Shown piece after piece: positions 17,334-44,978 of a stretch of DNA of 64,000 bases. Source of the stretch: Fimbriimonadales bacterium (GTDB lineage: Bacteria > Armatimonadota > Fimbriimonadia > Fimbriimonadales > GBS-DC); the NCBI GenBank assembly GCA_025998675.1, contig AP024673.1, forward strand, positions 1,391,221-1,455,220, written 5' to 3'. Within the stretch, counting starts at the first letter, position 1. Each line of letters starts with the position of its first letter. The notes below the pieces were generated by a model. It saw only the letters and a list, made by a program, of their open reading frames with translations, was not told where the DNA came from and did no database searches. Both the position numbers and the translations under genes were made by a program.

Positions 17334-18238
17334 ATCGCTCTGAGTATTGTTGCCGTGCGTTTTCGGCAGTCGCTTTGTCCGCGTGCGCGCTCAGGCGTGT
17401 GATTTGGAGTGCGGAAGCTCCGCTTCCGCACTCCATAAAAACGGCGATTTGCACACATGCTACCACTCTAACGCAAAGACACTTAACGCCCATCCGCTTT
17501 TTGCTAACGCTTCTCCTCTTCACTTTCACCCTGCTCCTGCCAGCTGTTGCGCAGGAGACGATTCCCCTGCCCCGCGTGAGCGTGGAGGTGGGCACGGCGC
17601 GCAACCCGCAGGAGGTCTCTACCTCGCTGCAGATTCTGGCGATTTTGACCCTGCTGTCGGTCGCGCCCTCCATTTTGCTGATGATGACCGCCTTCACGCG
17701 CATCGTGATTGTGCTGTCATTCCTCAAGAGCGCGCTCGGCACGCCGAACATCCCCCCGACGCCCGTGATTATCGGGCTGAGCCTGTTTCTGACCTTCTAT
17801 GTGATGGCGCCCACGCTCGACGAGATTAACCGCACCGCGCTGCAGCCCTATATGCAGCAGCAAATCACCTTCCCGCAAGCCCTCGAACGCGCCGAGAAAC
17901 CCATCCGCGCCTTCATGTTACGCCAGACCTACACCGAAGACCTGAACCTGTTCATTCGCCTGAGCAAGCAGCCGCCGCCCCGCACCGCCGACGAACTGCC
18001 GATGACCGTTCTCATCCCCGCCTTCATGCTCAGCGAACTCAAAACGGCGTTCATCATCGGCTTTTACATCTACATCCCGTTTCTGGTGATTGACCTCATC
18101 GTGGCGAGCATCCTGCTCTCGATGGGGATGATGATGCTCCCGCCCGTGGTGGTCTCGATGCCTGCGAAGTTGCTGGTGTTCACGCTGGCGAACGGCTGGA
18201 ATGTGCTGGCGCAGGCGCTGGTGCAGGGCTTTCGGTAG
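17330..18238 (+). CDS. fliP: flagellar export gate protein FliP, start region invaded by a repeat
   Basis: From ATG 17330, which overlaps the fliO stop, the protein would have 302 residues, but the first 50 or so are encoded by an inserted repeat (17341-17485). The real FliP sequence begins around FLLTLLLFTFTLLLPAVAQ, a signal peptide. Starting at TTG 17501 would give 245 residues, close to the usual FliP length. The conserved core is intact: LTLLSVAPSILLMMTAFTRI, then FLTFYVMAP, ELKTAFIIGFYIYIPFLVID and the C-terminal VVVSMPAKLLVF. FliP forms the FliPQR export pore. No fliQ or fliR follows, since rimO comes next. The core call is sure; the start is not. Confidence 0.9.
   Translation: MNRSEYCCRAFSAVALSACALRRVIWSAEAPLPHSIKTAICTHATTLTQRHLTPIRFLLTLLLFTFTLLLPAVAQETIPLPRVSVEVGTARNPQEVSTSLQILAILTLLSVAPSILLMMTAFTRIVIVLSFLKSALGTPNIPPTPVIIGLSLFLTFYVMAPTLDEINRTALQPYMQQQITFPQALERAEKPIRAFMLRQTYTEDLNLFIRLSKQPPPRTADELPMTVLIPAFMLSELKTAFIIGFYIYIPFLVIDLIVASILLSMGMMMLPPVVVSMPAKLLVFTLANGWNVLAQALVQGFR
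17341..17485 (+). mobile_element. degenerate copy A1 of the 160-bp TA inverted-repeat element
   Basis: The left end (TGAGTATTGTTGC) and right end (GCAAAGACACTTA) match the ends of the three full copies further right. Inside, the TTTTC.GC...GTCCGCG stretch and the hairpin GGAGTGCGGAAGC...GCACTCC align with them. The copy is 145 bp, shortened in the central palindrome. It lies 7 bp after the fliO stop and supplies most of the apparent N-terminus of FliP. Confidence 0.75.
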
Positions 18239-18257: not shown

Positions 18258-18263
18258 TACACT
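18258..18263 (+). promoter_or_regulatory. probable -10 element of leaderless rimO
   Basis: TACACT ends 8 nt before ATG 18272, and no Shine-Dalgarno sequence is present. Same spacing as for nagA. Confidence 0.5.
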
Positions 18264-18271
18264 TGAGCGCG

Positions 18272-19633
18272 ATGTCGAACATGCCGTCAGTGCGCCTGAT
18301 TACGCTGGGCTGCGCCAAAAACGAGGTGGACTCCGAAGAGATTGCGGGCGTGCTGCAACGCGCGGGCTATCGGCTCGACGCGCAGACCGACGCGCCCGAT
18401 GTGGTGGTGATTAACACCTGCGGGTTCCTCGAATCGGCGCAGCGCGAGGGCATGGCAACAATCCGCGACGCGCTGCGCCTCAAACGGCAGGGCAAAACCC
18501 AGCGCGTGATTGTCGCGGGCTGTATGGTGCAGCGGCTGGGCGAGTCGCTGCAGGAGCAGTTCCCCGAAGTGGACGCATGGGTGGGCGTCGGGCAGATGGC
18601 GCGCTTTGCGGAGATTGTCGATTCCGCCCGCGCTACACGCCAGCCGATTGCCGACATTCAGCCTCCGCACCACCGCTGGGCGGATGTGCCCACGCGCCTG
18701 CGCAGCCGCGCCCCATGGACCGCCTACCTGAAGGTCTCCGAGGGGTGCGACCATAAATGCACTTTCTGCACCATCCCCTCCTTTCGCGGCGCGCATGTGA
18801 GCAAGCCGCTGGAGCGGGTTCTGGAGGAGGCGCGCTGGCTGGCGCACAACGGCGCGAAGGAGATTAACCTCATCGCGCAGGACACCACCCAGTACGGCTA
18901 CGACCTCTACAAGCGGTTCATGCTGCCCACCCTCCTGCGCGAGCTGAACGCGGTGGAGGGCATCGAGTGGATACGCATTCACTACGCCTACCCGTCGCGA
19001 ATCACGGACGCGCTGATTGAGGCGATGGCGTCGCTGCCGAAGGTGGTTCCCTACCTCGATGTGCCGTTGCAGCATGCGGACGGCAGGGTGCTGAAGGCGA
19101 TGCGCCGTCCGGGCGACGATGCGCGCTACCTGCAGATGGTGCGCCGCCTGCGCGAGGCGATGCCCGACATCGCTATCCGCACGACCTTTATCGTGGGCTT
19201 CCCCGGCGAGGACGAGGCGGCGTTCCAGCGGCTGCTGGACTTCCTGCAGGCGGCGCAGCTGGATCGGGTGGGCGCGTTTATGTATTCGCGCGAGAAGGGC
19301 ACGCCCGCCGCCGAGATGCCCGACCAGGTGCCCTTCCGACTCAAGCGCGAGCGATTCGACCGCCTGATGCGCTTTCAGCAACCGATTTCGCTGGCGCGCA
19401 ACCGCCTGTGGGTGGGCAGGACGATGCGCGTGCTGATTGAGGGCTACAGCGCGGACGGCAGGTACGCGATTGGGCGCTCGCATCGCGACGCGCCCGATGT
19501 GGATGGGCTGGTCTATGTGCGCGGCTGCACGGCGTCGCCCGGCGCGTTCGTCGAAGCGCGAATCACCAACGCCGATGTGTATGATGTGTGGGGCGAGGCA
19601 ATCCCATATCAACCGGCGGGTCAGACTGCGTAA
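18272..19633 (+). CDS. rimO: ribosomal protein S12 methylthiotransferase RimO
   Basis: 453 residues from ATG 18272; a TTG at 18263 in frame is the alternative. The N-terminal UPF0004 domain has the first cluster cysteines (TLGCAKN, NTCGF, VAGCM). The radical SAM domain has CDHKCTFCTIP, and the C-terminal TRAM domain covers about the last 65 residues. SEGCDHKCTFC and the YPSRITD and YLDVPLQHAD segments favour RimO over MiaB. The enzyme thiomethylates Asp88 of ribosomal protein S12. It is the last full gene before the capsid cassette. Confidence 0.94.
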   Translation: MSNMPSVRLITLGCAKNEVDSEEIAGVLQRAGYRLDAQTDAPDVVVINTCGFLESAQREGMATIRDALRLKRQGKTQRVIVAGCMVQRLGESLQEQFPEVDAWVGVGQMARFAEIVDSARATRQPIADIQPPHHRWADVPTRLRSRAPWTAYLKVSEGCDHKCTFCTIPSFRGAHVSKPLERVLEEARWLAHNGAKEINLIAQDTTQYGYDLYKRFMLPTLLRELNAVEGIEWIRIHYAYPSRITDALIEAMASLPKVVPYLDVPLQHADGRVLKAMRRPGDDARYLQMVRRLREAMPDIAIRTTFIVGFPGEDEAAFQRLLDFLQAAQLDRVGAFMYSREKGTPAAEMPDQVPFRLKRERFDRLMRFQQPISLARNRLWVGRTMRVLIEGYSADGRYAIGRSHRDAPDVDGLVYVRGCTASPGAFVEARITNADVYDVWGEAIPYQPAGQTA

Positions 19634-19664: not shown

Positions 19665-19726
19665 GTTTGGAGTGCGGAAGCGGAGCTTCCGCGCGGCTGA
19701 AGCTGCGCTTCAGCACTCCATAAATT
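19665..19726 (+). repeat. partial copy A2: central palindrome only
   Basis: A TTTGGAGTGCGGAAGCGGAGC half-site followed by GCTGAAGC...GCTTCAGCACTCCATAAA matches the double-palindrome core of the 160-bp element. The terminal TAAGTGTCTTTGC repeats are missing. It lies between rimO and the capsid cassette. Confidence 0.7.
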
Positions 19727-19834: not shown

Positions 19835-20617
19835 ATGTCGCGCACGGAGTGGATTTACCGCGATGCGAAACTGCTGGAGACGGGGGTCTATCCCGACAAG
19901 GGCGTCGCCGTCACGGAGGCGCATCTGGAGGCGATTGTACGCGCCTTTCGCGCCCCGGCGCCGATACTGGTGGAGCATCGCCCCTCGCCGTTGCTGCTGG
20001 GGTGGGTGGCGCGTGTGTGGCGGCGTGGGCGCGAGCTGTTCGGCAGGCTGGCGCTGTTCCCCGAAGCGGACGCGCTGCTGCGCCGCCTGCGCCTGCGCGG
20101 GCTGAGCGTCGGGCTGAGCCGCGACCTGCGCCGCCTGCTCGAAGTGTCGCTGACCGCCAGCCCCCGAATTCCCGACGCGCAACTGTTCCACCGTGCGCCA
20201 ACCCAACAGGAGGTGATTCGATTGGACACGACGCAACTGGATACGCCTGAGCCCGAGTCGTATCTGCAGGCGCGTGTGCGCGAGCTGGAAGCCGAGCTGA
20301 AGCGCCGCGACGCCCGCGAACAGATTCAGCAGTGGAGCCTGCGCGGGCAACTGCCCCCTGCCCTTGCGCCGCTGGCGGAGGCGATTCTGATGCAGGGCGA
20401 CGCGCCCGTGCAGTTCAGCGGCGAGACAACCTCCGTCGCCGAGCTGTTCCGCCGATTTGTCGATAGCCTGCCGCCGCAGAACCTGCTGACCGAGCTTGCC
20501 CCGACGCCTGAGAGCGAGCCGCCCGCGTTCAGCGCAGACGCGCTCTCGTTCCTGCAGCAGGCGTTCCCCGACCTGAACCCCGCCGAGATTCTGCACACTA
20601 TGAAGGAGGCGCGTTGA
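19835..20617 (+). CDS. Mu gpI-like head maturation protease/scaffold
   Basis: 260 residues. The first 130 resemble the Mu I-type prohead protease: an EHRPSPLLLGWVARVWRRG strand, then FGRLALFPEADALL, a LRGLSVGLSRDLR stretch and the typical LEVSLTASPRIPDAQLF. The second half is acidic and helical (VRELEAELKRRDAREQIQQW), as expected of a fused scaffold. This protease type cleaves the scaffold during prohead assembly. The ATG at 19835 has no clear Shine-Dalgarno. It begins a tight three-gene operon with the decoration and major capsid genes. No portal, terminase or tail gene is nearby. Confidence 0.72.
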   Translation: MSRTEWIYRDAKLLETGVYPDKGVAVTEAHLEAIVRAFRAPAPILVEHRPSPLLLGWVARVWRRGRELFGRLALFPEADALLRRLRLRGLSVGLSRDLRRLLEVSLTASPRIPDAQLFHRAPTQQEVIRLDTTQLDTPEPESYLQARVRELEAELKRRDAREQIQQWSLRGQLPPALAPLAEAILMQGDAPVQFSGETTSVAELFRRFVDSLPPQNLLTELAPTPESEPPAFSADALSFLQQAFPDLNPAEILHTMKEAR

Positions 20618-20618
20618 G

Positions 20619-21032
20619 ATGCCCGCACTGAGCCAACCCTATGAAACGCATGAGCGCGAAGGGCTGATTGTCGCCTACCCCGTGAAGGCGAACGCGAAAA
20701 TCTGGAAAGGCGCGCTGGTGTGCGTCGACAGCACGGGCTACCTCATCCCCGCGAGCGATACGGCGAACCTGCGCTTTGTGGGCGTCGCCTTCGAAAGCGT
20801 GGACAACACCGGCGGCGCGAACGGCGCGAAACGCTGCCGCGTGGTCAAGCGAGGCGCCTTCGTCTACAACCGCGCAGGCAGCTACACCCAGGCGGACATC
20901 GGGACGACCGTGCGCGCCATCAGCGACAACGAGGTCGCCAAAACCAGTACCAACAACATCCTCGTGGGCACGGTGGTCGAGCTGCTGGACGGCAACCGCG
21001 TGCGAATCCGAATCGACAACCATACCGTTTAG
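20619..21032 (+). CDS. phage head decoration / DUF2190-like protein
   Basis: 137 residues, beta-rich, with the pattern of capsid-decorating proteins: VKANAKIWKGALVCVDSTGY, then FVGVAFESVDNTGGANG, RCRVVKRGAFVYN, and NILVGTVVEL near the C-terminus. It starts one base after the protease stop, with AAGGAGG 10 nt upstream. It lies between protease and major capsid protein, the order seen in Mu-like head modules. Confidence 0.72.
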   Translation: MPALSQPYETHEREGLIVAYPVKANAKIWKGALVCVDSTGYLIPASDTANLRFVGVAFESVDNTGGANGAKRCRVVKRGAFVYNRAGSYTQADIGTTVRAISDNEVAKTSTNNILVGTVVELLDGNRVRIRIDNHTV

Positions 21033-21045
21033 GAGGTGAGCCGAG

Positions 21046-21975
21046 ATGCCGCTGGTACGCAGTGATTTGCTGTCGCTGGTGGAGGCGGGACTGCGAACCG
21101 AGTTCTTCCGCGCCTACCGCCAGCTGGACGAGGCGAGCATCACGCCGCAGATAGCCACGATTGTGCGCACGAACCTGCCCGTGCAGAAGTACGGCTGGCT
21201 GGGGAGCGCGCCCCAGATGCGCGAATTCGTCGACGAGCGACAACCTGCCGGGCTGGGCGTGTACGAATACGCCATCAGCGATCAGGTGTGGGAAGCATCC
21301 ATCGCCGTCGAGCGACGCGCCCTCGAAGACGAACAGTACGAGATGATCCGCATGCGCGTGCGCGACCTCGCGCGGGAAGCCGTGCGCCATAAGGAGCAGC
21401 TGGTGATCGACGCCCTGCTGCGCGGCGCGGTGGACGGGCGCTGCTACGACGGGCAGCTGCTGTTCGATACCGACCATCAGGAGGGCGACAGCGGGCTGCA
21501 GAGCAACCTGTATAGCGGCGCGCTTTCTACCGCCAACCTGCAGGCGGCGATGGCGCAGATGATGCAGTTCAAAGACGACCGCGGGCGACCAATGGGCATT
21601 ATGCCCGATACGCTGCTGGTCGGACCGAAACTGCAGTGGCTGGCGATGGAGCTGCTCGAATCGCCGATTGTGGTGCAGGCGAACACAACGGGCAACTACA
21701 CGCCCTATCGGAATGTGATGCAGGGCAAGTTGCGCCTCATTGTGTCGCACTACATCACGGGCGCGCACGAGAACAAATGGTTCCTGCTGGACACCTCGCG
21801 GGCGATGCGCGCGGTCGTGCTGCAGGAGCGGCGCGATGTGTCGCTGGAGTTCGCCGCGCTCGATAAGCCCGACAGCGAGCAGGTGTTCATGCGCGATCGG
21901 GTGCTGTACGGCGCGCGCGCCCGCTACGGCGTCGGCTACGGACTGTGGCAGACCGCCCTGATGGGCACGGGCTAA
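21046..21975 (+). CDS. Mu gpT-like major capsid protein
   Basis: 309 residues, about the length of Mu gpT (305). Family features are ATIVRTNLPVQKYGWLGSAP, REFVDERQPAGL, the EASIAVERRALEDEQYEMI helix, CYDGQLLFDTDHQEGDSG and the late PDTLLVGPKLQWLAMELL. AGGAGGTGA lies upstream of the ATG. The fold expected is HK97. It is complete and without frameshift, so the cassette is not obviously decaying. What follows is a degenerate repeat and then an unrelated Uma2 gene. Confidence 0.85.
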   Translation: MPLVRSDLLSLVEAGLRTEFFRAYRQLDEASITPQIATIVRTNLPVQKYGWLGSAPQMREFVDERQPAGLGVYEYAISDQVWEASIAVERRALEDEQYEMIRMRVRDLAREAVRHKEQLVIDALLRGAVDGRCYDGQLLFDTDHQEGDSGLQSNLYSGALSTANLQAAMAQMMQFKDDRGRPMGIMPDTLLVGPKLQWLAMELLESPIVVQANTTGNYTPYRNVMQGKLRLIVSHYITGAHENKWFLLDTSRAMRAVVLQERRDVSLEFAALDKPDSEQVFMRDRVLYGARARYGVGYGLWQTALMGTG

Positions 21976-38326: not shown

Positions 38327-39276
38327 TTACGGACACTCGCAGGGGTTATCAAAGTAGCCTCCCACGCGTCCGCCGATCTCGCCACCAACCGTGGAACCGA
38401 TTATACCTCCGATAATCGCCCCTGCAGCACCGCCCACGACTGTACCCACTGGTCCAAAGGCAGATCCAAGAGCCATGCCTACCTTAGCTCCTGCCCATGC
38501 GCCAGCAAGACCTCCTGCATAACTTCCTAAAACGTTTCCTATAGCTTCACCGCGTTGCCCACAAGGAGCGCCCGCTGCGTGAGCTAAATCCGCACCTAAC
38601 AGAAGCAAGCCAAAAGCACCCAACGCTCGTCCCAATCCGCGCACACGAGTTGAACTACCACGATAGCGCTTATCTCCATTAACTGCCTGCCTCTGAACTT
38701 CCTCAGGTGTCGCCCAAACTGTAGGAATTTCTTTCCCTGCTTTCTGAAACGCAAAGAGACGACGATTATCCAGAGTGTAAAGCTGCCCCTGCTCTTCAAA
38801 GATGCGAATGGGTGGCACATCTTGTGGCTGGATGCGACCGCTTTTTAAGTGCCTTTGCGCGAGAATTGCGACATGCGCCTGCAGCACCGTCTTTATGGAG
38901 TGCGGAAGCGGAGCTTCCGCGAGGCTGAAGCTCCCGCTTCAGCACTCCAAAAGATGCGCAGGCGCGGATAGAGGCGCTGTTGAAAATTTACTGCAACAGC
39001 ACTTAGTCCTTCCATCAAATCCCATATTGAGCGACCATCTCTGAACGTCTGCCTTATGCTCTCTTGGGTAAAATGGATTAGGTGGGGAGGTCGTAGAACC
39101 ACTAAACCTGTTGGATCCGCACAGTTAATCGGCTCATTCCCGCAATACCGATACAGGTTCGGGTCGCCGGAGGCGGCGTCTATCGGGTCTCGCTGCAGCC
39201 ACCGTGCCGTGCGGGGGTCATACGCAGGGGCGACAGTATGATATAACTGGACCACCTGCAAGTGGCAGGGTCTCTG
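38327..39276 (-). pseudogene. Rhs tip F2 + ParB-like toxin, interrupted by element A3
   Basis: The open part begins after a TGA at 39,277-39,279: AYDPRTARWLQRDPIDAASG and YRYCGNEPINCADPTG (Rhs tip), then LIHFTQESIRQTFRDGRSIW and DLMEGL. There the 160-bp element A3 (38,846-39,005) interrupts it. After the element the toxin resumes in another frame: KSGRIQPQDVPPIRIFEEQG, then YTLDNRRLFAFQKAG, which looks like a ParB/sulfiredoxin-fold toxin. A Gly-rich hydrophobic C-terminus follows (GNVLGSYAGGLAGAWAGAKV, GAIIGGIIGSTVGGEIGG). With one TA removed together with the element, EGL joins directly to KSG in frame. As it stands the gene is broken; a GTG inside the element could start the downstream part only. 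Confidence 0.82.
38846..39005 (-). mobile_element. full copy A3 of the 160-bp TA inverted-repeat element
   Basis: 160 bp counted with both flanking TA. On the minus strand it begins TAAGTGCTGTTGCAGTAAAT and ends GCAAAGGCACTTA, so the ends are inverted repeats. Inside are two adjacent palindromes: one containing GTGCTGAAGC...GCTTCAGC and the other GGAAGCTCCGCTTCC. It has no open reading frame of note. It lies inside the ParB-like toxin gene. Confidence 0.88.
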
Positions 39277-44659: not shown

Positions 44660-44820
44660 TAAGTGTCGTTGCAGTGAATTTTCAGCGACTCCCCTGTCTG
44701 GGCATGCGCGTAATTTTGGAGTGCTGAAGCGGGAGCTTCAGCCTCGCGAAAGCTCCGCTTCCGCACTCCATAAAGACGGTGCTGCACGCGCATGTCGCAA
44801 TTCTCGTGCAAAGACACTTA
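44660..44820 (+). mobile_element. full copy A4 of the 160-bp TA inverted-repeat element
   Basis: 161 bp from TA to TA. It starts TAAGTGTCGTTGCAGTGAAT and ends GCAAAGACACTTA. The centre has the two palindromes GTGCTGAAGCGGGAGCTTCA and GAAAGCTCCGCTTCCGCACT. It shares its last TA with the first TA of A5. Confidence 0.88.
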
Positions 44821-44978
44821 AGTGTCTTTGCAGTGAATTTTCAGCGACTCCCCTGTCCGCGCATGCGCGTAATTTGGAGTGCTGAAGCAGGAGCTTCAGC
44901 CTCGCGGAAGCTCCGCTTCCGCACTCCATAAAGACGGCGCAGCACGCGCATGTCGCAATTCTCGCGCAAAGACACTTA
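44819..44978 (+). mobile_element. full copy A5 of the 160-bp TA inverted-repeat element
   Basis: 160 bp with a perfect 13-bp terminal inverted repeat: TAAGTGTCTTTGC at the left and GCAAAGACACTTA at the right. It is close to A4 over its whole length. It joins the end of Rhs tip F4 at its right side. Confidence 0.9.

Follow-up and report, generated by a model that had tools for sequence, protein, structure and literature searches.

The window, a stretch of 64,000 nucleotides (C1:1391221-1455220) from a Fimbriimonadales genome that consists of a single contig of 2,987,958 bases and is 98.85% complete, carries three consecutive phage-related genes on its plus strand. They encode a protease/scaffold protein of 260 aa (19835..20617), in which a head maturation protease resembling Mu gpI is fused to a scaffold-like half, a capsid decoration (cement) protein of 137 aa (20619..21032), and a major capsid protein of the Mu gpT family with a length of 309 aa (21046..21975). 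The three open reading frames are all intact, the gaps between them measure 1 and 13 bases, and AGGAGG-type ribosome sites precede the cement and gpT genes; upstream of the protease/scaffold gene no obvious ribosome site was found.

Graded by Pfam and PHROGs, the identification of gpT is firm, that of the cement protein clear and that of the protease/scaffold weak. The identity of the third gene as gpT is certain (Pfam Mu-like_gpT, PF10124, 7.7e-62; phrog_371, 2.2e-66), and the named relatives of its product are encoded by MAGs of Fimbriimonadales and other Armatimonadota. The cement protein matches PF09956 at 2.3e-5, which is above the family cut-off, and phrog_1731 at 3.2e-31. For the protease/scaffold the Pfam match stays under the cut-off (E 0.048), and its assignment follows from a match to phrog_976 (2.5e-7) and from His48 and Ser105, which are invariant in an alignment of 22 orthologues. 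Ser105 is part of an EVS motif, which is typical of phage prohead serine proteases, and the scaffold-like half is located C-terminal to these residues. A sequence-only reading of this DNA had proposed three intact, tightly packed genes for protease/scaffold, decoration and major head proteins, with good ribosome sites at the second and third; the reading frames, Pfam, PHROGs and the ribosome sites found agree with that description.

The trio is preceded by rimO (window 18263-19633) and followed by a Uma2 gene and a PD40 propeller gene, and the adjoining genes in the window include no further phage gene. The palindromic intergenic repeat GGAGTGCGGAAGCGGAGCTTCCGC has seven matches in the window against zero expected (window 17406-17434, 19669-19719, 38897-38920, 44746-44769 and 44904-44927), and a second repeat element occurs twice. 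The flanking repeats that had been noticed earlier are real, but as boundaries of a cassette they were rejected, both being scattered intergenic repeats. Comparison of the rimO neighbourhoods of ten relatives (L226-L235) revealed no other gene in common with the window at more than 50% identity, and gene order within the genus is extremely scrambled. A mobile cassette, as could be envisaged from flanks that differ among congeners, is not favoured, since the neighbourhood of rimO is scrambled equally and the trees follow taxonomy.

Further parts of the system are encoded at three other sites on the chromosome. If the trio is called locus A (window 19835-21975, plus strand), locus B consists of a Mu-type portal gene that stands alone (C1:1233456-1234523, minus strand), placed between genes for an adenine phosphoribosyltransferase-like protein and an ABC transporter. 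Locus C is a gene for a large terminase, TerL, which also stands alone (C1:2272815-2274032, plus strand), and locus D is a four-gene operon (C1:2555936-2557146, plus strand) for a 68-aa protein, a 92-aa membrane/coiled-coil protein with one hydrophobic segment, a predicted neck adaptor and a predicted stopper. Together the loci comprise nine genes and about 5.6 kb, lie up to about 1.3 Mb apart on one complete chromosome and are flanked by host genes; no transposase, tail or lysis genes were found beside the trio, the portal gene, the TerL gene or locus D. The 68-aa protein has 53% identity to a small protein encoded after gpT in a resident Mu-like prophage, which supports a phage-head origin of locus D. 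The claim of the sequence-only reading that other phage genes are lacking thus holds for the direct vicinity of the trio and fails for the genome, where portal, terminase and neck genes are present at three other loci. Its idea of capsid genes only, sufficient for an empty shell, is not supported, as the portal, the terminase motor/nuclease, the adaptor and the stopper co-occur with the trio, which argues for DNA packaging rather than protein cargo. The condition it had named for its own refutation, portal, terminase or tail genes elsewhere that complete the phage, applies by half: portal and terminase genes do exist, but what they complete appears to be a packaging machine. For a phage, matching tail, integrase and replication genes would be needed, and none of these were detected.

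In TerL, the Walker A motif (G27-RRWGK-T33), the Walker B motif (D120-E121) and S149-T150-P151, as well as the nuclease residues D241, D296 and D375-D376, are kept in at least 20 of 21 sequences from across the phylum, and the protein has matches to chains of known structure, a terminase ATPase (4zni) and a terminase nuclease (5m1q). The AlphaFold model of the adaptor (pLDDT 86.6) resembles the necks of HK97 (gp6), Bxb1 and SPP1 (gp15), with a Foldseek E of 0.43 and a maximum VIA-align Z of 8.1, and that of the stopper (pLDDT 92.4) resembles the necks of lambda, T1 and SPP1 (gp16), with Foldseek E-values of 0.002-0.04; these E-values are modest, and the top rows of the searches belong nearly all to one functional class. 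An RcGTA virion chain is present lower in the list of stopper matches. The models thus predict that the adaptor and stopper of locus D are neck proteins, and the conserved sequences suggest that the system would be competent in DNA packaging.

Among 61 genomes, gpT was detected in 41, with a single main copy, the portal in 47 and TerL in 48. When only the 51 good genomes (completeness of 90% or more, contamination of 5% or less) are considered, and weak, distant matches of TerL and portal are scored as absent, all three genes are present in 32 and none in 15, with four mixed cases; the pairwise Fisher p values for this co-occurrence range from 4e-11 to 5e-9, by a statistic that ignores shared ancestry. 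The system is dispensable, being absent from those 15 genomes. The adaptor was found in 17 of 17 searched genomes of the window's family and in none of six genomes without gpT, and its search gave no match in f2 and f4, two diverged families of the order. Incomplete sets occur in G060, which has portal and TerL and no gpT match, and in G016 and G018, where TerL gave no match; most relatives are draft MAGs, in which single absences are unreliable. Genes in the other genomes were called with a simple codon-usage caller and have approximate start sites. The gpT gene of a congener, G001, is interrupted in the middle (L031:10001-10928), which reflects an error in the MAG or else decay of this copy.

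The arrangement of the genes varies. In G030, a member of the same order, the whole set forms one run of about 6 kb on one strand, in the order protease/scaffold, cement, gpT, two small membrane proteins, adaptor, stopper, TerL and portal, and this cluster sits among host genes, e.g. trpS and rpsD. Other genomes of the order possess a capsid-to-stopper operon and a TerL-portal pair, and in the window's family even these two genes lie apart from each other; in the congener G010, TerL and gpT are about 1.6 kb apart. Clusters of the genes for portal, protease, cement, gpT, adaptor and stopper occur in other families of the phylum (G134, G092, G128, G156, G103, G171, G175), several of them with TerL and a TerS-like gene in front; G077 and G133 have the portal gene apart from the rest. 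No tail, integrase, replication or regulatory genes were seen in the compact clusters, which occur in at least seven genera. With gene order as scrambled as it is in the genus, dispersal of the system is the expected outcome of rearrangement. The trio and the adaptor operon stay intact despite this scrambling, and the persistence of such small operons suggests that they have a function.

Sequence identity to the window's genes is correlated between gpT and rimO (rho 0.81 in 35 genomes) and between portal and rimO (rho 0.84 in 38 genomes). The gpT and portal trees recover the tested host families and the TerL tree recovers f1, f3 and f5, while the order is recovered in the portal tree (support 0.986) and the TerL tree (0.905). 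The 40 chromosomal gpTs are united in one clade that has zero viral members (support 0.90), the closest gpTs from phages or viral contigs are 34% identical, and TerL is nearest to Thermus/Meiothermus phages, at 33-37%. Family f8, from outside the order, joins f1 in the gpT tree and is placed outside the order in the portal tree; some transfer between lineages is therefore possible. Apart from this discordant placement, the trees indicate that the system is vertically inherited in Armatimonadota at the family and order level.

All genes are under purifying selection, with dN/dS values (Nei-Gojobori, window's genome against congeners) well below 1. For the capsid genes these amount to 0.055-0.085 (gpT), about 0.08-0.12 (cement) and 0.15-0.23 (protease), and for the other loci to 0.09-0.18 (portal), 0.14-0.24 (TerL), 0.08-0.19 (adaptor) and 0.2-0.4 (stopper). 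The check on conservation and dN/dS that had been proposed at the outset thus found the trio kept in relatives and under purifying selection, with scrambled synteny around it. The view that the trio is not a decaying prophage and belongs to a domesticated, probably particle-forming system is strengthened by the presence of gpT in 41 of 61 genomes, the strong co-occurrence, the family-congruent trees and the low dN/dS of the trio in the genus (about 0.06-0.23).

A separate Mu-like transposable prophage is present outside the window at about 660-688 kb of C1 (L002, L003), with genes for a MuA-like transposase, an AAA ATPase, a GpA-type terminase, a portal, a gpT, a TMP_3 tape measure, a tail tube and a CHAP endolysin. 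That the trio is part of this prophage was considered and rejected, since the gpTs are 32% identical, the portals differ and the prophage terminase is of the GpA type. Among the other carriers searched, nearly all lack the tape-measure family of the prophage. Beside the prophage (G000:C1:658583-660682) lies a gene for a protein of ~700 aa, of which the counterpart in G004 (L020:12521-14674) is located about 1.6 kb downstream of gpT. The two proteins are 98% identical, whereas the capsid, portal and rimO proteins share 82-92%; together with the differing locations this suggests a recent exchange. Elsewhere the ~700-aa protein is about 30% identical. Such a gene follows gpT in G004, G005 and G016, and its product, which has no family match, is a candidate receptor-binding part.

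Searches for tail genes with PF10145 and PF04865 in 20 carrier genomes each and with PF20155 in 30 gave sporadic matches and nothing consistent; in the window's genome the only match was that of PF20155 to the Mu-like prophage. Tape-measure models of Pfam miss many tape measures, including, in the case of PF10145, that of the resident prophage, and the evidence that no tail accompanies the set in the carriers examined is good but not complete. A lysis gene was looked for in the window's family and none was found. In other families the cluster is followed by an amidase gene (G092, L213:1964-3049), a VanY-like peptidase gene (G128, L218:11781-12463) or genes for XhlA-like and small membrane proteins (G171, L222:9079-9798), and these differing lysis-like genes after the stopper suggest a replaceable lysis slot.

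In view of these results, it is likely that the trio forms the capsid module of a DNA-packaging particle system that derives from a phage, was domesticated by the host, is GTA-like and is spread over four loci. Judged from its gene content, the system probably serves to pack host DNA into particles, in the manner of a GTA. The gpT and protease/scaffold proteins would build a prohead on the portal, the protease would mature it and the cement protein would stabilise the shell. TerL would pump in and cut DNA, presumably that of the host, as genes dispersed in this way cannot be excised or replicated together. The adaptor and stopper would close the portal, and particles may then be released by lysis and delivered. 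In none of the genomes examined is the set accompanied by a tail gene, and the particle therefore probably lacks a tail or has one that is not recognised. Points against this reading of the system are that no lysis gene was identified in the window's family, that some carriers are short of one part, that 15 of the 51 good genomes lack the system and that f8 groups with f1 in the gpT tree.

GTAs are defined as having particle proteins derived from caudoviricetes, endogenised often over several loci and inherited mostly vertically; they package mostly random host DNA, cannot package their own genome as a whole, and deliver DNA to other cells (PMC9662315). An ICTV proposal comprises three GTA families, from alphaproteobacteria and spirochaetes. 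The Armatimonadota system has caudoviricete-derived proteins, by homology of gpT, cement, portal, TerL and protease, is endogenised over four loci and is mostly vertically inherited, with f8 discordant in the gpT tree. Loci that lie up to about 1.3 Mb apart cannot enter a head as a single unit, and the bearing of this on the definition depends on head capacity. With known GTAs (RcGTA/Rhodogtaviriformidae, BaGTA, BhGTA; PMC9662315) it shares head, portal, terminase and neck genes of caudoviricete origin in the host genome, a distribution over several loci, vertical inheritance, purifying selection and the lack of an integrase, whereas it differs by its Mu-like gpT/portal lineage, by its hosts, which are Armatimonadota, and by having no recognisable tail genes. 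Its genes suggest that the system would work most like a GTA, and a name that implies membership is premature. No earlier description of GTAs, or of this system, in Armatimonadota was found in the literature searched.

We tentatively put forward that the system is phylum-wide and truly tailless, with a motor, a portal and a stopper, and that its DNA is protected and released, e.g. for natural competence, or delivered by another route. A GTA that does have a tail, either encoded by unlinked genes too diverged to recognise or lent by a resident phage, seems unlikely, even though the adaptor and stopper are retained and the latter joins the tail in tailed phages, the RcGTA genes lie over five loci (PMC9662315), and the tape-measure models are as insensitive as the missed prophage protein illustrates. 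The three tail models found nothing consistent in 20-30 carriers, compact clusters in at least seven genera are without tail genes, and the resident Mu-like prophage, a possible donor, is distantly related and has a tape-measure family that is nearly absent from other carriers.

It is very unlikely that the genes represent a capsid-forming satellite similar to cf-PICIs, which would bring its own head and packaging genes and obtain tails from a helper phage. The likeness is considerable, since cf-PICIs encode capsid, protease, portal, connectors and terminases and no tails (PMC10690885), as do the Mulch/Flayer satellites in having a head and packaging set without a tail module (PMC10690885), and some of the present clusters include a TerS-like gene. 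However, these satellites are mobile and use helper phages, whereas the Armatimonadota system is dispersed in the window's family, is vertically inherited at the family and order level and is no island with integration or replication genes; its compact clusters contain no integrase, replication or regulatory genes, and an element divided over four loci is unable to move in the way a satellite does.

A domesticated shell for protein cargo or storage is highly improbable. Encapsulins are likewise host-encoded shell proteins with a relationship to phage capsids (PMC8987985), the trio could by itself suffice for a shell, and it is kept together despite the scrambled gene order; but encapsulins are standalone HK97-fold shells for protein cargo without portal or terminase, whereas the Armatimonadota system has a portal, an adaptor, a stopper and a TerL whose ATPase and nuclease residues are intact, all of which co-occur with the trio under purifying selection and serve no purpose in a shell that stores protein. 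Mu-like transposable phages (gpI, gpT, portal gp29) have the same families of capsid protein, portal and protease, but the Armatimonadota set is without MuA/MuB, tail or lysis genes alongside and does not constitute a complete Mu-like prophage, in which transposase, tail and lysis genes accompany the head genes. That the loci are scattered remains of decaying prophages, as the Mu-like prophage in the genome and the partial losses in G001 and G060 might suggest, is hardly credible in view of the same genes across many genera, the gpT clade without viral members, the dN/dS values well below 1 and the distance (34% identity) to the nearest phage or viral-contig gpT.

If a tailless GTA-like system indeed exists in these bacteria, it would represent a new GTA architecture that arose independently of the three described families. 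A vertically inherited packaging machine from Armatimonadota whose capsid and portal are Mu-like and which has no recognisable tail would extend the taxonomic and structural range of GTAs, and it raises the question whether such particles need a tail to benefit the bacterium. Because it comprises about nine small genes, in some carriers in a single run of about 6 kb, the system is directly testable by expression. It also illustrates how a domesticated phage can be split into loci by genome rearrangement while its genes are still under selection.
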